From Paramecium tetraurelia (taxonomy: Eukaryota > Ciliophora > Oligohymenophorea > Peniculida > Parameciidae): a DNA stretch of 64,000 bases. The stretch spans positions 248,001 to 312,000 of the forward strand of contig NW_001799636.1 of NCBI RefSeq assembly GCF_000165425.1, in the 5' to 3' direction. The notes beneath the pieces were generated by a model. It was not told where the DNA came from, ran no database searches, and saw only the letters and a list, made by a program, of their open reading frames with translations. Positions 17,648 through 39,809 of this stretch are shown piece by piece. The first letter of the stretch is position 1. Each line of letters starts with the position of its first letter. The translations under genes and the position numbers were made by a program.

Positions 17648-19736
17648 ATGAAAAACCTATCCATTTTGTTATTATTTTTCGTCTACTGCTCTGTTAGTGT
17701 CTTAGGAGAGCCAATGTTAGTCTCCTAGTCATTTTAAGGAAACGATTTTACAGATGCTGACGGTAATTTCAGTAAGTAAAATGATAGGTTGGGTGGTAGC
17801 TGGTGGACTACCTCATATAACAGAATGTAGTGGAACCAAAATGTTTGGAGGTTTCGGTAAACTTGGTGGGAAAGCTGTTGCAAGCAAATTATTTGAACTA
17901 CCTCCTCATTCTTCAATTAATTTGAAAGTATAATTCTGGAAGTAATATTCTTATGTATTATAATTTTAGGATTGATTCATGGGATAATGAAGAAGGATAC
18001 ATTTTTGTTGATGATTAACTTGTCTGGTCAAGAAAATTTAAATTTAACGAAGGTGATGGATAGAAGTGCGGATAAGGTGGAGAGTGGAAAGAAATGATAC
18101 TCAATCTTGATCTAAACGTAAAACACACTGGTGCAACCGCTGTGGTTGTATTTACATCAAATTTGAATGAAGCTGCTGATAATGTATCTTTTTGATATTA
18201 GGAAATAGGAATCTTGGGGCATAAGAGAATTTGTATTGTCAGTAGAAAGATGTCCAGAGGGTTGCTCGGCTTGCTAAGTTGATGACAAGCGTGAAAATTG
18301 TGAATTCTGGTAATCATTTTCTTCCAGTTGGGGATCATTAGATTCTAACTAATTAGGAGCCGATGGTTGGGAAGTTGCAGGTGGATAAAAAACAGCTACT
18401 AATTGTGGAGGTATAATTTTTAAATAATTTTAAAAAAGGTGTCGCTTTATTTGGTGGCTTTGATAAGACTGGAGCTAGAGCTGTTGTAAGTAAAATTCTA
18501 AAAGTTAACCCTCATTACAAATTAAAAATTAAAGTGCTTTGGGCTAAGATTGACTCTTGGGACAATTAAGCAGCTTAAATAAAAGTTGATGGAAAATTGG
18601 TTTGGGAAAGAAGATTCTAATGGCATGAGGGTTATTTTGGTAAGATATGTGGTTGTCCTATCTTTGAATGGAAATCAATGTTTGCCAGAACTGAGGTTGA
18701 TGTTGATCACACTGGTGATTAAGCAAAAGTTGAGTTCACTACAACCTTAAACGAGGCTCCAAACAATGAATCATTTGGCTTGAGAGATCTATACATCTTC
18801 TATGCTGCCTGCTCTGAAAACTGTGCTGAATGTACAGGACCTAAAGAATCTGATTGCAAGAGTATTATCATTTTTTATGTAAATTTAGAATGTGAAAATA
18901 ATTGGGCTTTGGTTGGCGGAAAATGCTAAGCATTACCAAATTTCATACTTTTAGAATAATCATTTTTGGAAGATAAGTTCACAGGAATCAACGGATGGGT
19001 TCTTAATAAAAATAAAGGAGGAAAACAAATTAATGAATGCAGTGGTAAATCTATGGTTGGAGGTTTTGATATTATGGGTGTTGGTGCTAGTGCTACTAAA
19101 ACATTTGATATCCCCCCACACAAAAGACTCAGACTCTAATCTACAATCTACAAAATCGATTCTTGGGATGGAGAATTCATGATAATTAAAGTTGATGGCA
19201 CTGAAGTATGGAAAACTTCATGGAATCTCTAAACTGGAGGTGCCAATTTCTGTGGACAAGGAGTTTGGTTTGATGGTATTACTGGAGTAGATTAAATCTT
19301 CAATCACTAAGCTCCAAAGGCAGAAGTGATATTTACATCCACCTTAAATTAAGATGCTGCTGATGGTAATAAAAATATAATATCTTGTAGAATCTTGGGG
19401 TTTCAGAGATTTCAAATTATGGTATGAACCAAAGGAATCCTGCGCAGTTTTCTATAGTGAATGTGATTACAAAGGAGCATCATTTGAATTCTGTTCAAAG
19501 TCACCTGATTTCTCAAAGGATAACATTCCCCCATAGATTAGATCAATTAAAATTCCCCCTCAAGGAAGAGTCACATTATATGAAAGTACTGATTACAATG
19601 GAAAGAAGGTTACTTACACCTCAGATCAAGCTTGCATTTCAAGCTTTGATGTAACAATTTAATTTCATCACTTTAGTTTTCATTGATTTAGAAGAGCGGT
19701 AATGTTGAAGGAGGCTGGATCGAAGTTGAATAATGA
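17648..19736 (+). CDS. Large secreted Cys-rich repeat protein with C-terminal beta/gamma-crystallin domain
   Basis: Seven introns (25 to 28 nt) give 634 residues. A signal peptide (MKNLSILLLFFVYCSVSVLG) precedes three homologous modules of about 165-180 residues. Each holds a Trp/Gly start (GWVVAGG, GWEVAGGQ, GWVLNKN), a Cys-Ser/Gly turn, a GGF motif (FGGFGKLGGKA, FGGFDKTGARA, VGGFDIMGVGA), KIDSWD and a VDxxxVW strand. Cys-rich links (CPEGCSACQ, CSENCAECTG) join them. The last 90 residues form a beta/gamma-crystallin-like domain (YSECDYKGASFEFC, VTLYESTDYNGKKVTY). In Tetrahymena, proteins with a C-terminal crystallin domain (the Grt/Igr group) are mucocyst cargo; this gene is probably regulated-secretion cargo or an extracellular adhesive. 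A related C-terminal domain occurs at 45866-47303. Confidence 0.8.
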
Positions 19737-19941
19737 TTGAATACATTTACATAGAACAAATATAAAAATTAATCACAAAAAATATATTAGTATTAAAATA
19801 AAGTATTTTGAATTAATATCATCATCTATATTAATTGAATGTGTTTGTCGGTTAATGGGTTTTGATAATAATTTCAATTAAAAAAAATATGAATTGTATT
19901 TTTAATTCACTCTCCATAATTGTTTGAAGTTTCTTTGAGTT

Positions 19942-20213
19942 TCATGTTTGATCGATTATGAGTGTTAACTAAATTAAATTTTTAAGTGAGAAAGCCATCC
20001 TTTCAGCTCCCCGATATTTGTTGTGATATTAATTCAAAAATAACTTAGTTTGATAATTTAAGAGTGATTATGATGACCTGTTTAGAAGATTCATCTAATA
20101 GAAGGTTTCCCCATCATAGTAATCATACTAATTAGCCTATAATAAGGCGGATATCGATATGAATCAGGAACACAGAAACAGTGCTTCTTGTAATACTTAT
20201 TATAATACATCAT
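19942..20213 (-). CDS. Short basic protein, family unknown
   Basis: Two introns of 34 nt give 67 residues, starting MMYYNKYYKKHCFC, then VPDSYRYPPYYRL and ending in LFLNQYHNKYRGAERMAF and a hydrophobic tail. The exon joins are inferred from frame: without them three separate protein-like frames overlap. It is divergent from the dienelactone hydrolase at 20254, leaving only 40 bp between starts. The function is unknown. Confidence 0.45.
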
Positions 20214-20253
20214 TACTTATATTACATTAAAATAAATATATAATTATTATAAA

Positions 20254-21047
20254 ATGCAAGCAAATCCAGCTCTACATACTCCAGCAAAGAAGAATTGTAC
20301 ATTCGAAGTTGCAGGAAGACCTGATGGCGAAGGGTATATTACTTATAAATTCATACTTACGCAGATATTTAAGCCAGAACAATGCTATGTTTGGAATTAT
20401 TGTGATATAAGAATGGTGGGGTTTGAATGAATCGATGGTGAAAACAACTGATAAGATAGCCAAAATGGGATTTTAATGCATCTCTCCAGATATTTATAGA
20501 GGAAAAGTTGCCCAGAATAGAGAAGTAATGTGAACCATTTTTTATCATAGGAAGCTGGTCATCTTTTAGGTGGATTAGATTGGGAAGGAGCAGTCAAAGA
20601 CATTGAAGGTGCAGCAAAACATTTGAGAGAGATGGGATGTAAAAAGGTTGGAGTAACAGGATTTTGTATGGGCGGAGCTTTAGCCATTGCAGCTTTATCT
20701 TTTTCAGATTAAATCAATGCTGCTGCTCCATTTTATGGTGTCTGTGATTTGAATACATTCAAATTAGATAACATAAAGGGACCAATTTATGGGTAGTTTG
20801 GGGAGAAGGATGAAATGAAAGGATTCTCCTCTCCAGATGATGCTTAAAGATTAGTTGATGCAGGGTAAAAGGCTGGAAAAAATATAAAAGTGAAGTAAGT
20901 AAAATGTTTAATTAAAGAATTTGGCCAGGTGTTGGACATGCTTTTATGAATTAAGACAGGCCTGAAGCATTTAATGCTGAGGTAGCTTAATAAGCATTAT
21001 AGGAAGTGGCTACATGGTTTAAATAAGTATTTTCATAGTAATTGTGA
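20254..21047 (+). CDS. Dienelactone hydrolase family protein (cytosolic copy)
   Basis: Three introns (31, 26 and 23 nt) give 237 residues. The family signatures are present in order: IIVIQEWWGLN, PDIYRGKV, the nucleophile elbow GFCMGGAL (catalytic Cys), AAAPFYGVCD, FGEKDEM (catalytic Asp), and WPGVGHAF (catalytic His), so the Cys-Asp-His triad of this alpha/beta hydrolase is complete. Members hydrolyse dienelactones and other esters; the substrate here is unknown. It lies 25 bp upstream of a paralogue in the same orientation. It lacks a targeting sequence, unlike its neighbour. Confidence 0.92.
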
Positions 21048-21072
21048 AATTTATTATAAAAATATTTTATAT

Positions 21073-21789
21073 ATGCAAAGATCCATTTTTAAGTCAAGAT
21101 TCTTGTATTCCTTAGTTTATCAGAAAGCAACTCCTACAACAACAATTGGTGGAAAACTTCCTGTTTATGTTACACCTGCTCCTTATGGTTTGGTTATAAT
21201 CTAGGAATGGTGGGGACTAAACTCTTCCATTTGTAAAACAGCTGATATCATGAGTACTTATGGGTTTAAGTGCGTTGTACCTGATTTGTATAGAGGGAAA
21301 ATTGCTAAGGATACTGAAGAAGCAGGACATCTACTTTCTGGATTAGATTGGAAATAAGCTTTAATTGATATAGAAGAATCAGCTCGTTATTTAAAGGAAG
21401 ATTTGCATTGCAAGAAAGTAGGAATTTTAGGATTCTGTATGGGTGGAGCACTTAGCATAGCATCAATTACAACCTCTAAAATCATCTCTGCTGCTGCACC
21501 ATTTTATGGAGTCTGCGATTTAAGCACATTCAAATTATCTAATGCGAATGGACCTATTCTCGCTTAATTTGGTCAAAATGATGATATGGTAGGATTTTCA
21601 TCAGTCTAAGATGCCAAAAGATTAGAATCAACAGCAGTGTAGTAAGGAAATAAAAGTTTGCAAGTGAAAATCTGGCCTGGAGTTGGACATGCTTTTTGTA
21701 ACTAAGATAGACCAGAGGTTTATAATTAAACCATAGCTAAATAAGCTTTAGATTTAGCAGCAAAGTTTTTACATGAAAATTTAAAATGA
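21073..21789 (+). CDS. Dienelactone hydrolase family protein (probable organellar copy)
   Basis: A single exon codes for 238 residues. The triad is complete: GFCMGGAL (Cys), FGQNDDM (Asp) and WPGVGHAF (His), with IIQEWWGLN and PDLYRGKI upstream. The N terminus (MQRSIFKSRFLYSLVYQ) is Arg/Lys/Ser-rich and free of acidic residues, like a mitochondrial presequence. It is a tandem paralogue of the gene ending at 21047. It has lost, or never had, the three introns of the neighbour, so either intron loss or an origin by retroposition is possible. Confidence 0.92.
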
Positions 21790-21950
21790 TTCATAAAAAT
21801 ATTCTATTATTTAATGTACATAATCTAAGCGATAAGAATATATCCTAAAATTACCGCAATTTTTTAAATCAATATGCCTTGCTTCTTTCAAAATCCAACT
21901 TTATTTACATAGATATTTTTTTTTATGATAATTACAATAATAATAAATTA

Positions 21951-22196
21951 TCAATTCTCATGAGATCTTCTATATTTAAAAAAAATTGGAAAATATAAAA
22001 AGTTAGAAAATTTATTGATTTTTTCCAATCCTTCTTTTAATTGTCCATTTTGAAATTTTGATAGTGAGATTAAGAGATCAATTGATGATTCCCTAAATAA
22101 ATTATAAGCCTAAAAGCTTTAGTTTATATTAGAAAAAATATTTATTAATTAAGATTATTAAGATTCAGATATTATAAAATACGAACAATAAAGATA
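21951..22196 (-). other. In-frame coding-like extension after the TGA of the globin gene
   Basis: Directly after the TGA at 22199-22197 the same frame continues for about 81 codons to TGA at 21951, with protein-like blocks (AYNLFRESSIDLLISL, KFQNGQLKEGLEKINKF). No short intron removes the TGA. It may be a decayed former C terminus, stop readthrough, or chance. The remaining bases up to 21790 show nothing. Confidence 0.3.
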
Positions 22197-24172
22197 TCAA
22201 TCAAAAACTATATGTTTTTTGTAATCATCTATTACATCAAGTACAAACTATAACTTTTAAGGTTCATCTTGCATCACTATTTTCATTGCCTAAATTATTA
22301 AATATTATATGTACTTATTAAAATTCGAAGTAAGGTTATTCTCTTATTCTTAATCTTTTATGTAGTACCTCAATATCAGTTCTTTTATAAAAGTGAAGTC
22401 CATAGAGAATTAAGTTGAGTTTACATCTTAGATTTTACCCAATAGGTGATTCATTATCCTTATTTATTTATACTTTTTACTTCAAAAACTTTGTATAATA
22501 AAGGTCTTTACATAATCTCATTTTCAAGTTTAGATGCAATTCTATTGACAACAAACTATCCACCAAGTTATTTAATAGCAGTTTTTCTAGGTTTATTCAA
22601 AAGAATAGGGGTGATTTCTTCCCAATCTTCTTCAAAATCGCTTAATAAAATCGGATCGTTAGTAATTTTGCTTACCGCTTGCAAGGCCTTCTCTTTGAAT
22701 TTTTTGAAGACTTTCTCTGAAATAATAGTTTTATTCTTATGAATACTCTCAATATCACTATCAGTAATTGACTTGACGTTATCTCTAAAGAAATAATGGA
22801 AAACATTTTCACAATGGGCAGTAAATCTCTATTTGCCCCTTTTTTAAACTAAATCAAAAAGTATTGGTTCACTTGAGCACAGGCGAACAAAGCCTTCAAT
22901 GAATTCTCTGTACCCTCCTGGAGAATTGTTAATGCATTCTTATAATGATGATTTATTTAATATCGCAAACTTGTAGGTGTCCATTTTCCTCAGTAACATT
23001 CGGATATGTTTGTATCTGATTCCTAATTTTTGTAGTGTAGTAGATAGATAAAACTTAAAATTTGCCAATTACACATGTGTAAGCTTGTATTTAACATGTC
23101 TTTCTCTCAACACTTCTAGTGTATAATTTGGTGATTCAGTATGATCTATTAATTAAGCAAATAGTTTCGCAAATTTAATTGCCTATTCTTCTAGCTCTAT
23201 AGCCTTGAAATAAGGACTTAGGGTATAATCTTTAAAAATCTTCTCATACATATTTTTAGCAATTTCGTTAATTCCAAACTCTCCCCCAAATATCTCAAAA
23301 TCACTTTTTTAATTTAATATTAATGGTTTAAAATTTTCTAATTTATAACATCCTTTAAATAACAATTCAACTGGAGTCTCCATGTCCATAAATTGATTTA
23401 TAAACAGATATTTAAATCTAATAAATTATTCCTTCCTTATAAACAATGGTGCGTGGATGCTTCTCATTCTAAATGGGTCGAGCAAGATCTCTTAAGTGTA
23501 TCCAATTCCTAAAATGCTCTTGTAAATATCCTTCAAGTATTTTAGTGATTTTCCCTAGAATTTCATTTTTAATTATCTATCTAGCATAATGCGTGAATAA
23601 AGTGTTTCTGAATGTTAATCAAGCAATTCGTTACTCCCATATTACTTTATCTGAGTTTTTATTATCTTCCGAAATTTGGTTTCAAAGAATTTGCTGATAA
23701 TTTCAGTCTAAGTCATTGGTTACTGTTTTAAGTCTCTATGGGTTGGATGTATTCTTGGCCTTTTTAACTGCTCTAATTAATCTTGTACATTTCTTAACCC
23801 AATATAATTGGATGCCTTTGTTTTTGGTTGTATGGGAATAAACTTAAAATGGACAGGGGTATTTGGAAGCACGATGACTTGGGAATCGCTTATCATTGGT
23901 AAATGATATGCAGTTTTTGTAGGAGATTACTCATGACTTCGGAAATTCTTTGTTTTATTTATGAAATCTTTCATTGCTATTTGACATTAAGATGTATGCT
24001 TTATTGATAATTCATTCTATGGGTCTTATCGTAAGAGTGTGCTTAACTATTTTTCCCATCTTTGCTTTTTCGAATTAATCGGAGAGCCTTACTATTGAAA
24101 CTATCGACCTTGAAATGATGATTTCAACTCCTCCTTGGTTTGCTACATTTGAATAAAGTCTCTAAATGTCAT
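22197..24172 (-). CDS. Protein with three tandem truncated-globin-like modules
   Basis: Two introns (22459-22480 and 22290-22314; 22 and 25 nt) give 642 residues. Residues 1-285 are a basic, Gln-rich region without a recognised domain. Module 1 (about 288-380) reads EIFGGEFGINEIAKNMYEKI, SPYFKAIELEEQAIKFAKLF, then LEVLRERHVKYKL with a candidate haem-ligand His and LANFKFYLSTTLQKLGI. Module 3 (about 530-642) repeats the plan: QLGGQFVVNRIASKLENEI, RPLLYKVFED, EVLHKRLRI with an aligned His. Module 2 (about 425-515) is more diverged (FTAHCENVFHYFFRD, IESIHKN). These match the order of truncated haemoglobins: LGG near the start, helices B to E, proximal His, and the final H helix. Roles for such globins are O2, NO or redox sensing; haem binding here is untested. 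Confidence 0.65.
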
Positions 24173-24952
24173 GCTTTTACTATCCTATTTCATATGTTCA
24201 GTGGGAAATTTAAAAGGACATCTAGGAGATGTTGTAAGATTATGCATCTTTATTTTAATATTAAAATATATATTGATAATTAAGTATGGGTACAAATATC
24301 AGAATTCTTGTATTCATAACCAATTTTTCATCAATAAATTAAGCAAAAGAAAATACTCACAAATTTAACTATCTAAAATTAACACATAATATTTTAAAAA
24401 GAATTTTAGTTAATTCATATTTATCAAAACACTTAAAAATGTTGTAATTGCTCTAAAGGATATGGGAATAGTACCAAAATTCGATATTTAAATTTTTGAA
24501 AAATTGCAAGATTATGTAACAAAAGTTAATTTAATATATAATTATTAATGCTCATTTTAATATAAAAATTGATAAATTAATTTAACGTTTTCTTTAGGAT
24601 TTAATAATAAAAAAGAGGTGATTTATGCATAATTTTCATTATTTATAAACTTCTTATGTTAAGCTCTCTATTTTCCAATTAATTCCAATGGTATCCTTAA
24701 TTCATAATGGTATAAGATATAATTTATTGAATAAAATATATTAATGCTTCTAATTTTCTTCTTGATAAAATCTCAATTCACAACATTATTATTAGAATAG
24801 GAGCAAACATTGCTTCTCTTATATAATAATAAAGGAATAAAATAAATCAACTAATTTTTTAAAATATTTTTTATTATATATTCCTAATATGTCTCAATAA
24901 AAGAGGATTTGATAGATGCACAATAAAATTATTTAATAATAAATTTAAATAT
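24173..24952. other. AT-rich intergenic stretch
   Basis: It separates the 5' end of the globin gene from the 3' end of the poly-Q gene. I see no protein-like frame and no RNA gene. Confidence 0.5.
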
Positions 24953-26061: not shown

Positions 26062-28344
26062 TCAATAAACTAGTTTGTTGTTGATCCATCTGCCATCCAT
26101 GATTTTACCATTCATACAATAGAATATTCCAGGACCATTTATAAAATCCTTCTAGAATGTACCCACAAAACGCTCTCCATTGGTTAGATACAAAGTTCCC
26201 TATCCCTCTTTATTGTCCTAATCAAAATTGCCACTATATTTGATCCAAAAACTAAGGAATATAGGATATTATATTATACTCTTCAACATTGTCAAAATCT
26301 CTGTAATCAAACGATTCTTACAGTGGTTGTGGATGCTCATTATAGAGAGTTCCATGACCTTAAAACTAATCCTCACTCCATTGTCCTTAATAGGCAGGTT
26401 GTCCTGTTGCATAATAGAGTGTTCCTAAAAAGAATGTAATTAATTAATTACCATCTCCATGCATCTTATTTTCCTTCCATCCTCCATCATATAATCCACC
26501 ATCTTGATAGTAAAACTTTCCTTGTCCATGTCTCATGCCATTGGATTTCATCCCCTCATAACGAGATCCATTTGAATAATGTTCAACCACAAATTCTGGT
26601 CGATTGACACTGTCTGCTTTGAATTAAGGAATATCATATGGCAATGAAAACTCTTTGGTTTGGGTTGCTGTTATTTATTGAGGAAGATTGGTTGAGTCAC
26701 TAAGAATTTTAGAAAATTTGAAATATTCCTATCTTTAGGTTGTCTATTCAACATCTTCTTCTGGTTGAGGATCGATATTTTCATCGAATTAAGACTGCTT
26801 ACTAATAGTTTCACTTGGCTGTTTGAATTGTAGAGTATCGCATTAATCAGGTTGCAATGATTAAATTGGAGCAGCTTACTTTTAAATATTGCTACTCGTT
26901 TAACTACTGAATTGATATTCTTATACTTATTAAGTTGTATAATTCAATCTGGATTATTATTACTAAGTAACAGTTCTAGTATTTGAGAGTTTGTTAGATA
27001 AAGGTTTTGGAGGAAAATATATTTATTTAACCTACCCACTCTTATTACTAAGAATAGATAAATCAGTAGGAACTGTTGGAACAGCATAAGTGTAAGTCTA
27101 ATTCGGATCCTTACTGCTTTATCTTGATCCTCTTAATCTGGGAACTGAGCTGTCTCTGTTATCTCTTACTTTCAACTATTATTGGGGTACTAAGATCTTG
27201 CTTAATGGCGTGAGACTTCTTTATGAGGTATCTGTTTTAATTGTGTATTAATGAACATATTCTAATGGTGAAATGTTTTGAACTTATTGAAACCTTCTTG
27301 ATTGAATCTACTACACACTATTCACTTGAGTTAAGCATGGCTGAATTGTAGTATTAGCAACAATTGTATGTTGTTGTAGTGTCTATATGTTATTAGATTA
27401 ATAGGTAGGATCTATTATTGGGATTATCTGCCTTTAAATAACATTGGGAATATATTATTATTTATTTGAAACTTATTAATTGTTGTTGATATAGTGTTCC
27501 AATTATAAAAAATCTGGTCTTTGATCTTCCTTGATAATTAACATTGTCTATATCCAATCGCAAAATTGATGTCCATATCTCAGCTTCAATTTTTATAGTT
27601 TACTATTCAAAACATCTTCAATTAATAAGCCTTGATCATATGAGTAACAATCTGAACTTGGTTGATTTAAAGCCAAGTGGAGGAACATCATGCCCAAAGT
27701 GAACACATCACTCTTGTACTCGTTATGTTTTGGTTACCAGTTGTTTAACTATATTGATTTCACCAATATTGGGGATAGATAGATGCATTCCAAACAATTC
27801 GGATTTTGTAATACCTGCATAAAATTTGTGCTATGTTGAAAGTACATTGGGTCTGTCACCTTTATTGTTTCATCCATCAAATACAAATATTTGAGTTATA
27901 AGGAATTGTGTTAGATCTCATTTTTCTGCATGCATGCTAATCCTGCAACTGCTTGTTTCAAATACTAAACTAATTGTGTTTCATTTAAGGCTGGAACTAA
28001 CTCCAAATTTCCAGTTGGATATTCAAAAAGTAAATAAACCTTGTAGAATTGTCCACAGAGTTATTACTCAAATTGGTAAAAGTAATTGCTCAGATTAAGA
28101 ACATTTTGATGATTGATCTTGTGTCTCACTTGGTATTGCTGGACAGCCTTCTTGAAGTGAACCTCATCTGTTATGTTTAAAGTGCGAAGAATCAGCTTTT
28201 GATGTGGATCTCGTTTATGTTGTAAGATTTAACACTCTGGGAAGTCTAAGATCATCTACTTTGAGACATACCGTTGTTATAAACATTAATTTATCGGAAG
28301 TGATCATAAAGCTTGGTGATTGGTTTCGAATCGGTGGCTCCCAT
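26062..28344 (-). CDS. Pseudokinase with C-terminal MORN repeats
   Basis: Three introns (26, 27 and 28 nt) give 733 residues. It begins MGATDSKP, a fair N-myristoylation signal. Residues about 50-270 follow the kinase fold (HQNVLNLSNYFYQFE, LLFEYPTGNLEL, VQYLKQAVAGLACMQ, and YKSDVFTLGMMFLHLAL as helix F), but HRD is replaced by QHNSLQLKY and DFG by TDPMYF, so activity is unlikely. A 300-residue Gln/Ser/Thr-rich linker follows. The last 150 residues hold MORN repeats: YEGMKSNGMRHGQGKFYYQ, YDGGWKENKMHGDG, QGQWSEDQFQGHGTLY, NKEGQGTLYL and INGPGIFYCMNGK. MORN repeats bind membranes or scaffold cytoskeletal proteins; a membrane- or axoneme-associated scaffold is a reasonable guess. Confidence 0.8.
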
Positions 28345-36895: not shown

Positions 36896-39809
36896 TCAAA
36901 TTAACCATATCTACTTTGAATGTTCAGAAGAACCAACCACTGACTGTCTCATAGGAAACTTTATGCGTCCTTAATGTTGTTTAAACTAAACATCAACTAT
37001 TGATTAATACTTGTCTCGATTATTTTATTTCGACCAAAGTAGTATAAGGGAGAAATTGCTTCAATCTTTCTGGCTTCACCTCCAGTTTAAAACGATTAAT
37101 ATCTTCCATATTGATTGCATAATAATCTATGTATTCCTCAAACACATTAACACTATTTATATATTTAAGAGGATTACTCATATTCAGTGTCTATTTTGGG
37201 TTTGATTTATGCCCCATTATAGTATCTCTATACTTCTTTTAAGACTACAGACAAATTATTGTGAGTACTATAGATTTCAAAATCATAGCCAAATTCAAAA
37301 TGATCAATTAGGGAGTAATTTTGTTAGCTTTTATTTGAAATAAAGAGATTCTCTTGATTTTGATTTTCCTTTTAAACTTGATATTCTAATATGATCTCAT
37401 CTAATTTCTATTGGATTGTCTCGGAATCACTTTGTTCGTCTGAACTTTAGTTTTCATTAATTTTGGTATGACTGATACTGCTGCTTTACAAATTTAAAGA
37501 GGGCGTTGAAGATTAGATTAATTACGAAATAGATTTAGTAAGATTAAAAAGATCATTTTGTTTTTGAGTTATCATTTAGACTTGACTCAATTATGCACGC
37601 ATGACCTTTTATATTTCTCTTCTCCTGTTTCGATCCTCTTTAAATTTGGACTTGATTTTAAAGGGTTGAGGAATATTTTTGAATAGGATTGTTTTATTTT
37701 GTGCATCTTCTAGATTACATTCTTCAACAATATATCCAGTCATCGGAATGACAGTTTATATACTCAGAGCCTCTTTCTTAATAAGATACTAGTGTTTAAT
37801 GGCATTAAAATGTATCCTATCCTTTCTAACATACTCTTTCATGATTTATCTAATGCACCTGTTCTTTGTTTTATTATACACATAAAGATCCACATTGAAA
37901 TGTAATTGAGGACAATCTCTAACTACATGTCCTGGTAATTCACAAGCAAAACAATGTATTGAGAGTACAGAAAATTGACGTTTATTAACTTCCTCTTAAA
38001 TTGAGTAGAACTTCTCAAAATCTTTAGGATACTTTTGTAAAATCTACAAAAAACTCTCTCTTTTCAGCACAAACAAATCGCTGAACCCTTCACTCTTGGC
38101 AGAGGCAGTTCGACCTACATTTCCAAAGAAATTGATCTCACCAAAGATTTATTTATTAGTTAATTTAGCTGCTACTTGTCTAGTCTTAGGCAATACAATA
38201 TTAATCAACCCATCTTGAATGAAATAAAGATGCTCCGAATTTTTGGGATTGTCTTCAATAATGATGTATTCATCTGGTTGTGCTGTTTATTCAAATAAGA
38301 TTTGAGTAATATCTAAGAGGAGGACACGAGAGAAGGTTTTACAGAAATTTGTATAAGTGGCTAGAATGTTGCCATTAACATGAACAGTCAATAACTACTT
38401 CAGTTCCTAGGATAGATTCACAGTGATTGCATCTAATTTAATAAGTCTACTTGAATCCCAAATATACTATAAGTACTTTCTCACTCTCTATTGAAGATGT
38501 TTTGGGATCTTTACTTTCTGCATGTAATTGTTGATTTCTGCAATATTCTTTTTTTACTGATCTTTTTTTTAACTCATCTATTACATGGTATTTCCTATAG
38601 AATTCATAGTAAATGACAACACTCCACAGGCTACCAATAAGAAGAATATTCCACATAATCGTTCTATCGTTGTTTAAGGCGAGATGTCTCCATAACCAAC
38701 AGTAATCATAGTAGTGACAGCCCAATAGATTGATGTTACGTACCTCACTTCAACTGGAGAGTCATAAATACCTGCTACAACTAACCAATTATGGTTAGGA
38801 TCTTCATTCATTCCCACAAAATGAAATATGCACCCTAGCCAATGTGACCAAAATAATACAAAGAAGCTCAATTTAAGAAAACTGGCTATTGTATTAATGG
38901 TGGAATAGGTTTGAAGTTGTTCTTCAATTTTATCGAAAATCACCTTTAATTTAGCTAATCTAAGTAATCTAATAATCTTGATAAATCTAAAGAATTTTAA
39001 AAGTCTCAAAATTTAAGCACTTTATTATAATGTCTTTGATTGGCCAGCACTGTTACTACTCTAATCGGTTTCATCGGCATCTGATAGCAATATCGATTCT
39101 ATGATCTAATTATGATTGTGTCTTATAATATACCATGTCGTAGGGGAAGGAGGCAATTAAATCTAGCCAAAACCACAATTTCATATATTGTTTAAATATT
39201 ACTGAGTATTAAAAATTGATGGTCCCTTTGATCCAGACGGCTGTATTGAAGGTAACTGCGATGTCAACCAAGAAGATAGTTGTTATAAATGTGCTTAATT
39301 CGCTGCTTATTTCGAAGTCAAAGCTAATTCTGAAGGGGATGGACAATATTTCATAGAAAATTAGAAACATGCACAAGAAATCCCAAATGATTTTTAGTGT
39401 TCCATCAGGTGAAAACACTATAGATTCTAAGAATGTTAGTTTTTTTTTTGGTTTTGTGATTTGCTAAATTTGATTGCTGTTCTTCATGGATGAAAGTGCC
39501 ATAGTAAGAGTCATTTCCTTAGACCGTTCCTTCTTCTCGACACAGTGCTCATTGTCAAAAGGCGTCTTGAAATCATACATTCGTTGTTCCTCTCTTGAAT
39601 GATGCAATGACTTGGGAATAGGAATGAATGGGAATACCTTGTCGTTCAATATGTACTGCTCAGTTTGGAGACAAACAAAGATAGGCTTTACGATCGGATA
39701 TGGACTTGTTAATGTATTCCAATCGTTTCCTTTCTCTTTCACTATGTTTATTAAAGTGTTGTTTTTCTAAAAGGTTGGTCTTTAGAAATTTTTTAACAAT
39801 AATTGACAT
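36896..39809 (-). CDS. Voltage/cyclic-nucleotide-gated K+ channel with CCHC zinc knuckle
   Basis: Four introns (31, 28, 25 and 25 nt) give 934 residues. Six transmembrane segments are visible: S1 (IIWDFLCMFLIFYEILSIPF), S2 (FITTIFLVDIAVTF), S3 (LWFWLDLIASFPYD), S4 with regularly spaced Arg/Lys (LLKFFRFIKIIRLLRLAK), S5 (FLKLSFFVLFWSHWLGCIF), the pore with a TVGYGD filter (38686-38703), and S6 (FFLLVACGVLSFTMNSIG). A C-linker and a cyclic-nucleotide-binding domain follow (DEYIIIEDNP, FIQDGLINIVLP, IFGEINFFG, GRTASAKSEG). Just after it is a CCHC knuckle, CFACELPGHVVRDC (about 37910-37960), then a 280-residue hydrophilic tail. It should conduct K+ across a plasma or ciliary membrane. The start rests on a 31-nt intron right after MSII. 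Confidence 0.88.

Follow-up and report, generated by a model that had tools for sequence, protein, structure and literature searches.

Four tandem globin-like modules on one chain encoded by a Paramecium tetraurelia gene

Described truncated haemoglobins and the locus

Small ciliate globins bind O2, and the single-domain truncated haemoglobins of known structure PDB 1dlw, 3aq5, 1dly and 1uvx, from Paramecium, Tetrahymena and Chlamydomonas, are chains of 116-164 residues. Multidomain truncated haemoglobins are, to go by its title, reportedly the subject of Hade et al. 2017 (IUBMB Life 69:479). According to a passage of PMC7082302 that cites Hade et al. 2017 among others, single polypeptides containing several 2/2Hb domains are already known. 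The hallmarks of truncated haemoglobins are given in part of PMC4720485 as HisF8, AspB16 and two GG motifs, the latter (one between helices A and B, the other at the end of helix E) belonging to groups N, O and Q, while group P varies. As set out in a section of PMC11904497, HisF8 is the haem anchor, and the residue at E10 may also bind the haem iron, giving a six-coordinate state in which electron transfer is easier, as with Synechococcus GlbN (His) and THB1 (Lys). A passage of PMC4304232 reports NO dioxygenase activity of THB1 in vitro.

The window, i.e. the whole stretch of DNA analysed here, comprises 64,000 nucleotides (C217:248001-312000), and searches of its own genome covered 231 contigs with a total of 69.07 Mb. 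A minus-strand gene in the window encodes a long N-terminal tail followed by four modules (D1 to D4), as follows.

22197..24247, minus strand: whole four-module globin gene, 667 aa, three exons, ciliate code
24247-22481, 22458-22315 and 22289-22200, minus strand: the three exons, with the stop TGA at 22199-22197
22459..22480, minus strand: intron 1, 22 nt, GT..AG
22290..22314, minus strand: intron 2, 25 nt, GT..AG
23663..24247, minus strand: N-terminal tail, residues 1-195, with no family match, evolving faster than the modules
23315..23662, minus strand: D1, residues 196-311, candidate F8 His265 at 23455-23453; absent from the initial annotation
22940..23314, minus strand: D2, residues 312-436, HisF8 384 at 23098-23096; module 1 of the initial annotation
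22592..22939, minus strand: D3, residues 437-552, HisE10 478 (22816-22814) and HisF8 503 (22741-22739); module 2 of the initial annotation
22200..22591, minus strand: D4, residues 553-667, across three exons, candidate F8 His622 at 22362-22360; module 3 of the initial annotation

The gene model was built from a four-way DNA alignment with the close paralogues C16a, C50a and C74a, followed by spliced translation, and single-intron models of the 3' end were dropped after this alignment. The start ATG at 24247 and the stop are common to all four genes, as are the place of intron 2 and the coding frame on either side of both introns. In the order window gene, C16a, C50a, C74a, intron 1 measures 22, 22, 28 and 26 nt and intron 2 measures 25, 30, 24 and 25 nt, so that all introns fall between 22 and 30 nt. 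Homology guided the gene models of the paralogues, which are uncertain towards the N-terminus. Translation table 11 gave one ORF of at least 200 aa in the window, as against 48 with UAA and UAG read as Gln, and was dropped in favour of the ciliate code; TAA and TAG are Gln in the frame of the gene, and UGA is its sole stop. Together with the tiny introns and the duplicates of the gene in similar surroundings, this code points to a Paramecium-like ciliate. A scan for bacterial-type promoters and terminators gave hits at chance level, these patterns being bacterial and uninformative for a ciliate.

In the initial annotation, made from the letters alone, the gene ran from 22197 to 24172. The long minus-strand frame carrying truncated-globin modules stands, and the start moves from 24172 to the ATG at 24247. 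The earlier length of 642 aa, counted from the ATG at 24172, fits one 47-nt intron at 22473-22427, which we presume was the model used, whereas the paralogue alignment shows two introns. With the 47-nt intron the total length comes out right, the frame is wrong between the true introns and the histidine of D4 is lost, the sole His past the junction falling among the last five residues.

The window gene belongs to the published class of multidomain truncated haemoglobins. Like them, it has a tandem series of truncated-globin units within a single chain: more than one such domain is recognised by PDB profiles (D1, D2 and D4), and all four by comparison with the small globins of the same genome. 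The family differs in having its own conserved residues at each position, with the layout of four F8 histidines kept in 19 of 21 genes. The description of the protein as a candidate for something undescribed was too strong, since chains with several 2/2Hb domains are already in print, as part of PMC7082302 states. Among the papers listed in a literature search, none is, by title and abstract opening, on a ciliate protein of this kind, and one may still exist.

Profile evidence for the modules

Profile comparisons showed four tandem globin-like modules on one chain, D3 being the least sure of them. That the module matches are above chance is argued by shuffle-controlled profiles, by the regular spacing of candidate proximal histidines (119, 119 and 119 residues) and by the invariance of these histidines in paralogues. 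Profiles were built from subsets of the 16 aligned genes of the family: nine for the PDB and Pfam searches, ten for the small-globin comparison and shuffles, and eleven for the tree.

A Pfam scan of the first reading frame (598 aa) returned residues 317-430 as the only match. This corresponds to D2, which scores 24.1 bits against PF01152 in the reading frame and 27.2 bits as an isolated module, with a cut-off of 21 bits, while D1, D3 and D4 of the window gene, each scanned alone, have no PF01152 match. As only one of the four modules is recognised in this way, the result suggests an underestimate of globin numbers in such ciliates. Among nine family members, matches to PF01152 at E 1 or better were found for D2 in all nine, for D1 and D4 in two each (best E for D4 0.00027) and for D3 in none. 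Against PDB chains, the family profile of D2 finds the globin LI637 (best E 1.1e-9) and that of D1 finds cyanoglobin and HbN (best E 4.1e-6). The D4 profile has 12 PDB matches with E no higher than 10, every one a truncated or an algal/ciliate haemoglobin; the best E is 0.0037, and the four at E below 0.01 are variants of one protein. No globin was matched by D3 in the PDB with the family profile, its best matches there being ferritins at E 0.13 and above.

The same genome has 21 places that match PF01152, of which 19 are separate small truncated globins of several types; 16 of these 19 models were used for profile comparison, shuffles and pocket assignment, L002, L015 and L019 being dropped as faulty models. 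One small truncated-globin place lies on the window's own contig (C217:54958-55323). In profile-profile comparison with the 16 small globins, every module matches, with E-values (each for one comparison) of 1e-15 for D1, 1.1e-19 for D2, 1.7e-5 for D3 (probability 78) and 2.3e-11 for D4. The corresponding scores are 89.6, 112.2, 34.8 and 65.5; with the columns shuffled 150 times for each module, no score reached the observed one (best shuffled score 21.1), and reversed module profiles scored 11.7-17.8. The modules also match one another, clearly for D1-D2 (E 8.7e-13) and D1-D4 (1.6e-9), and more weakly for D3-D4 (2.5e-5), D1-D3 (1.6e-4), D2-D4 (4.3e-4) and D2-D3 (0.0047), all with ten-row profiles; with nine rows both D2-D4 (0.0044) and D2-D3 (0.03, probability 1.7) are weak. 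The case for D3 is thus the weakest of the four, and is backed by its small-globin match, its place in the repeat and its histidines.

These results change the initial picture of three truncated-globin modules behind 285 unrelated residues. Tandem truncated-globin modules with proximal histidines are borne out, the number being four, with D1 (196-311) having been missed; about 116 of the supposedly unrelated residues form this globin module, and the remainder is the faster-evolving tail. The former module 1 (D2) proves to be a truncated globin by a PF01152 match over the cut-off. For the former module 3 (D4), globin membership is upheld by the family profile, in both the PDB and the organism's own genome, and not by a PF01152 match of the window sequence itself. 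Module 2 (D3) had been called diverged and is indeed divergent, yet still appears to be a globin.

Gene family and haem pockets

From 25 matches in its own genome, 21 related genes were sorted. Sixteen were aligned, and five (C128, C174, C40, C187 and C159), whose models are broken, incomplete or very distant, were set aside and looked at later. The four closest genes, on C217, C16, C50 and C74, lie in matching surroundings, with a kinase-MORN gene 2-12 kb upstream of all four loci and a DLH gene near those on C217, C16 and C50. Four-module globin genes occur as a tandem pair on C16, C50, C74 and C5, and the downstream partner is missing at the window locus (window 21790-22197), with no remnant of it found in positions 18001-22200 (best E 0.12). 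In L049 (C128:197900-200900) the frame is broken within D3, at about 1800, which may reflect decay of this copy of the gene or a fault in the assembly. Beyond this genome, the D2 profile was run on viral contigs and exon 1 on genome contigs, where it can find close relatives only; each search gave 19 pattern matches, none of them a relative.

The modules are under purifying selection (dN/dS 0.01-0.05). Between the window gene and C16a, dN/dS is 0.024 for D1, 0.010 for D2, 0.051 for D3, 0.036 for D4, 0.15 for residues 1-195 and 0.058 overall; dS is roughly 1 or higher, and overall saturation affects four of the six gene pairs. In a tree of 11 genes with four modules each plus nine small globins, a branch separates each module position from all the rest (support 83/74, 100/97, 99/99 and 94/91), and thus the four-module layout is probably older than the paralogue groups; the tree has long branches, and some joins may be false.

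Candidate F8 histidines of the window gene are residues 265, 384, 503 and 622. When the 12 histidines of residues 196-667 were placed at random, four equally spaced ones (step 100-140) arose in 21 of 20,000 trials. F8 histidines are present in all four modules of all 16 aligned genes, with spacing ranging from 114 to 125 among genes, and in three of the five genes checked later (C128, C174 and C40). The two distant genes C187 and C159 have a His aligned at D1 beside a gap; C187 is without F8 His at D2, D3 and D4, and C159, with a model that does not extend to D3, is without it at D2. The aligned genes are themselves divergent, the lowest identity with the window gene among the nine profile rows being 17% for D1, 31% for D2, 18% for D3 and 20% for D4.

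Pocket positions, assigned by alignment to the small globins of the same genome, differ from module to module. D2 has a canonical pocket, with TyrB10 334, AspB16 340, PheCD1 347, GlnE7 355, LysE10 358 and HisF8 384 in the window gene. All six residues are invariant in the 16 aligned genes, including Asp340, six residues past TyrB10, and position E11 is Phe or Leu. By Pfam and PDB profiles and by TyrB10, GlnE7 and HisF8, D2 is a domain of the kind seen in the single-domain chains 1dlw, 3aq5, 1dly and 1uvx, and its invariant LysE10 recalls that of C. reinhardtii THB1. The window protein differs from these single-domain chains in carrying four modules in 667 residues, in the E11 residue of D2 and in the GG motif at the end of helix E, which inspection of the sequences found in none of the four window modules. 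The GG pair near the first site (helices A-B) is present in D2, D3 and D4 of the window gene and not in D1.

D3 carries both HisE10 (478) and HisF8 (503) in 16 of 16 aligned genes and in the later-checked C174 and C40, the same pair that is found in Synechocystis/Synechococcus GlbN, and D3 is predicted to form a bis-histidine (E10/F8) six-coordinate haem site. In contrast to GlbN and THB1, D3 is without TyrB10 (0 of 16) and mostly without CD1 Phe (present in 1 of 16), the window gene having neither, and its profile misses these proteins. In C128 an Ile is aligned at E10 of D3, with the frame breaking just past it and a His readable in another frame, and HisE10 is absent from C187 and from C159, whose model stops short of D3. 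The distal sides of the other two modules are altered: D1 has TyrB10 in 9 of 16 genes and PheCD1 in 6 of 16, both being present in the window gene, and D4 has PheCD1 in 12 of 16, the window gene included, and neither TyrB10 nor GlnE7 in any. Multi-globin chains of animals mostly repeat like pockets, and a single chain that combines unlike predicted haem pockets, as here, is unusual.

Predicted function and alternative readings

Of the readings considered we would place an O2/NO redox protein first, ahead of a scaffold, a sensor and an oxygen store. On this reading, to which we give about even chances, the chain would be a group-I-like truncated haemoglobin of four domains, probably with haem in most or all modules and with a role in O2/NO redox chemistry. 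D2, with its TyrB10/GlnE7/LysE10 pocket, would be a ligand-binding or catalytic site for O2/NO, and D3 is predicted to hold a haem with bis-His (E10/F8) ligation, which would fit a part in electron transfer or a redox response. D1 and D4 keep the candidate proximal His and have altered distal sides. The likeliest task of the protein would be to remove NO in an O2-dependent way, or to carry out another redox reaction of O2/NO, in the cytosol, and the linked haems would perhaps relay electrons within the chain or regulate it. How much haem the four-module protein takes up, how that haem is coordinated, where the protein resides and what it does are all inferred here from the sequence. Counted against the O2/NO reading are the lack of a Pfam or PDB globin match for D3, the weakness of D3 and D4 relative to D2, the altered pockets of D1, D3 and D4, the missing helix-E GG, the His losses in C187 and C159, and the finding of no reductase domain in Pfam scans of the window gene.

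Several of the same observations would be expected if the protein were chiefly a structural scaffold, its four helical globin folds forming a rod with haem in D2 at most: the distal pockets of three modules are altered, F8 histidines are not kept in two distant genes, and the N-terminal tail has no known domain. We consider this unlikely for the window gene, as a pure scaffold would need none of the four F8 histidines or the HisE10 of D3, and all of these are invariant in 16 of 16 genes despite identity falling to 17-31%. A four-module scaffold may nevertheless exist without haem, since C187 and C159 are without F8 His at some modules, and these distant relatives (L056 and L057, respectively) are possibly haem-free globin scaffolds.

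The chain might also be a gas or redox sensor, in which ligand binding to a module, or its oxidation, alters how the N-terminal tail binds a partner. Unequal pockets and the joining of a faster-evolving tail to conserved modules are in keeping with sensing, and the separate small globins could be left to do the bulk chemistry; sensing is a prediction, the Pfam scan found no output domain, and we hold this reading to be rather unlikely. A polymeric store or carrier with four O2 sites per chain, comparable to the multi-domain haemoglobins of some invertebrates, would suit the equal lengths of the tandem modules and the O2 binding of small ciliate globins, and is quite improbable given four unlike pockets, with D3 predicted to be six-coordinate, where a store would be expected to have like ones.

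It is also conceivable, and in our estimation quite improbable, that four haems of two or more types sit on the chain in a set order, with the bis-His D3 beside an O2/NO-reactive D2, and that the protein works as a self-wired NO dioxygenase or redox relay. If so, electrons would pass from one globin module to another within the same protein, and this in a family of ciliate genes that has grown by duplication. Four truncated-globin modules share the chain, each position with conserved pocket residues of its own, and the cell is of a kind open to RNAi. The protein thus lends itself naturally to asking whether haems that are linked but differ in coordination regulate one another or pass electrons among themselves.

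A Cys-Pro dipeptide, the core of haem-regulatory motifs, stands near the N-terminus (residues 10-11, 24220-24215) in all five group-A genes (window, C16a, C50a, C74a and C5a), and likewise in several distant genes, perhaps by coincidence. Elsewhere in the window, apparent extra partial matches to a dienelactone hydrolase gene lie at 20282-21011, just before the intact copy. The neighbour gene at 26222-28255 has a protein kinase domain and MORN repeats by Pfam, and an ion channel with a cyclic-nucleotide-binding domain is encoded at 37138-38811.
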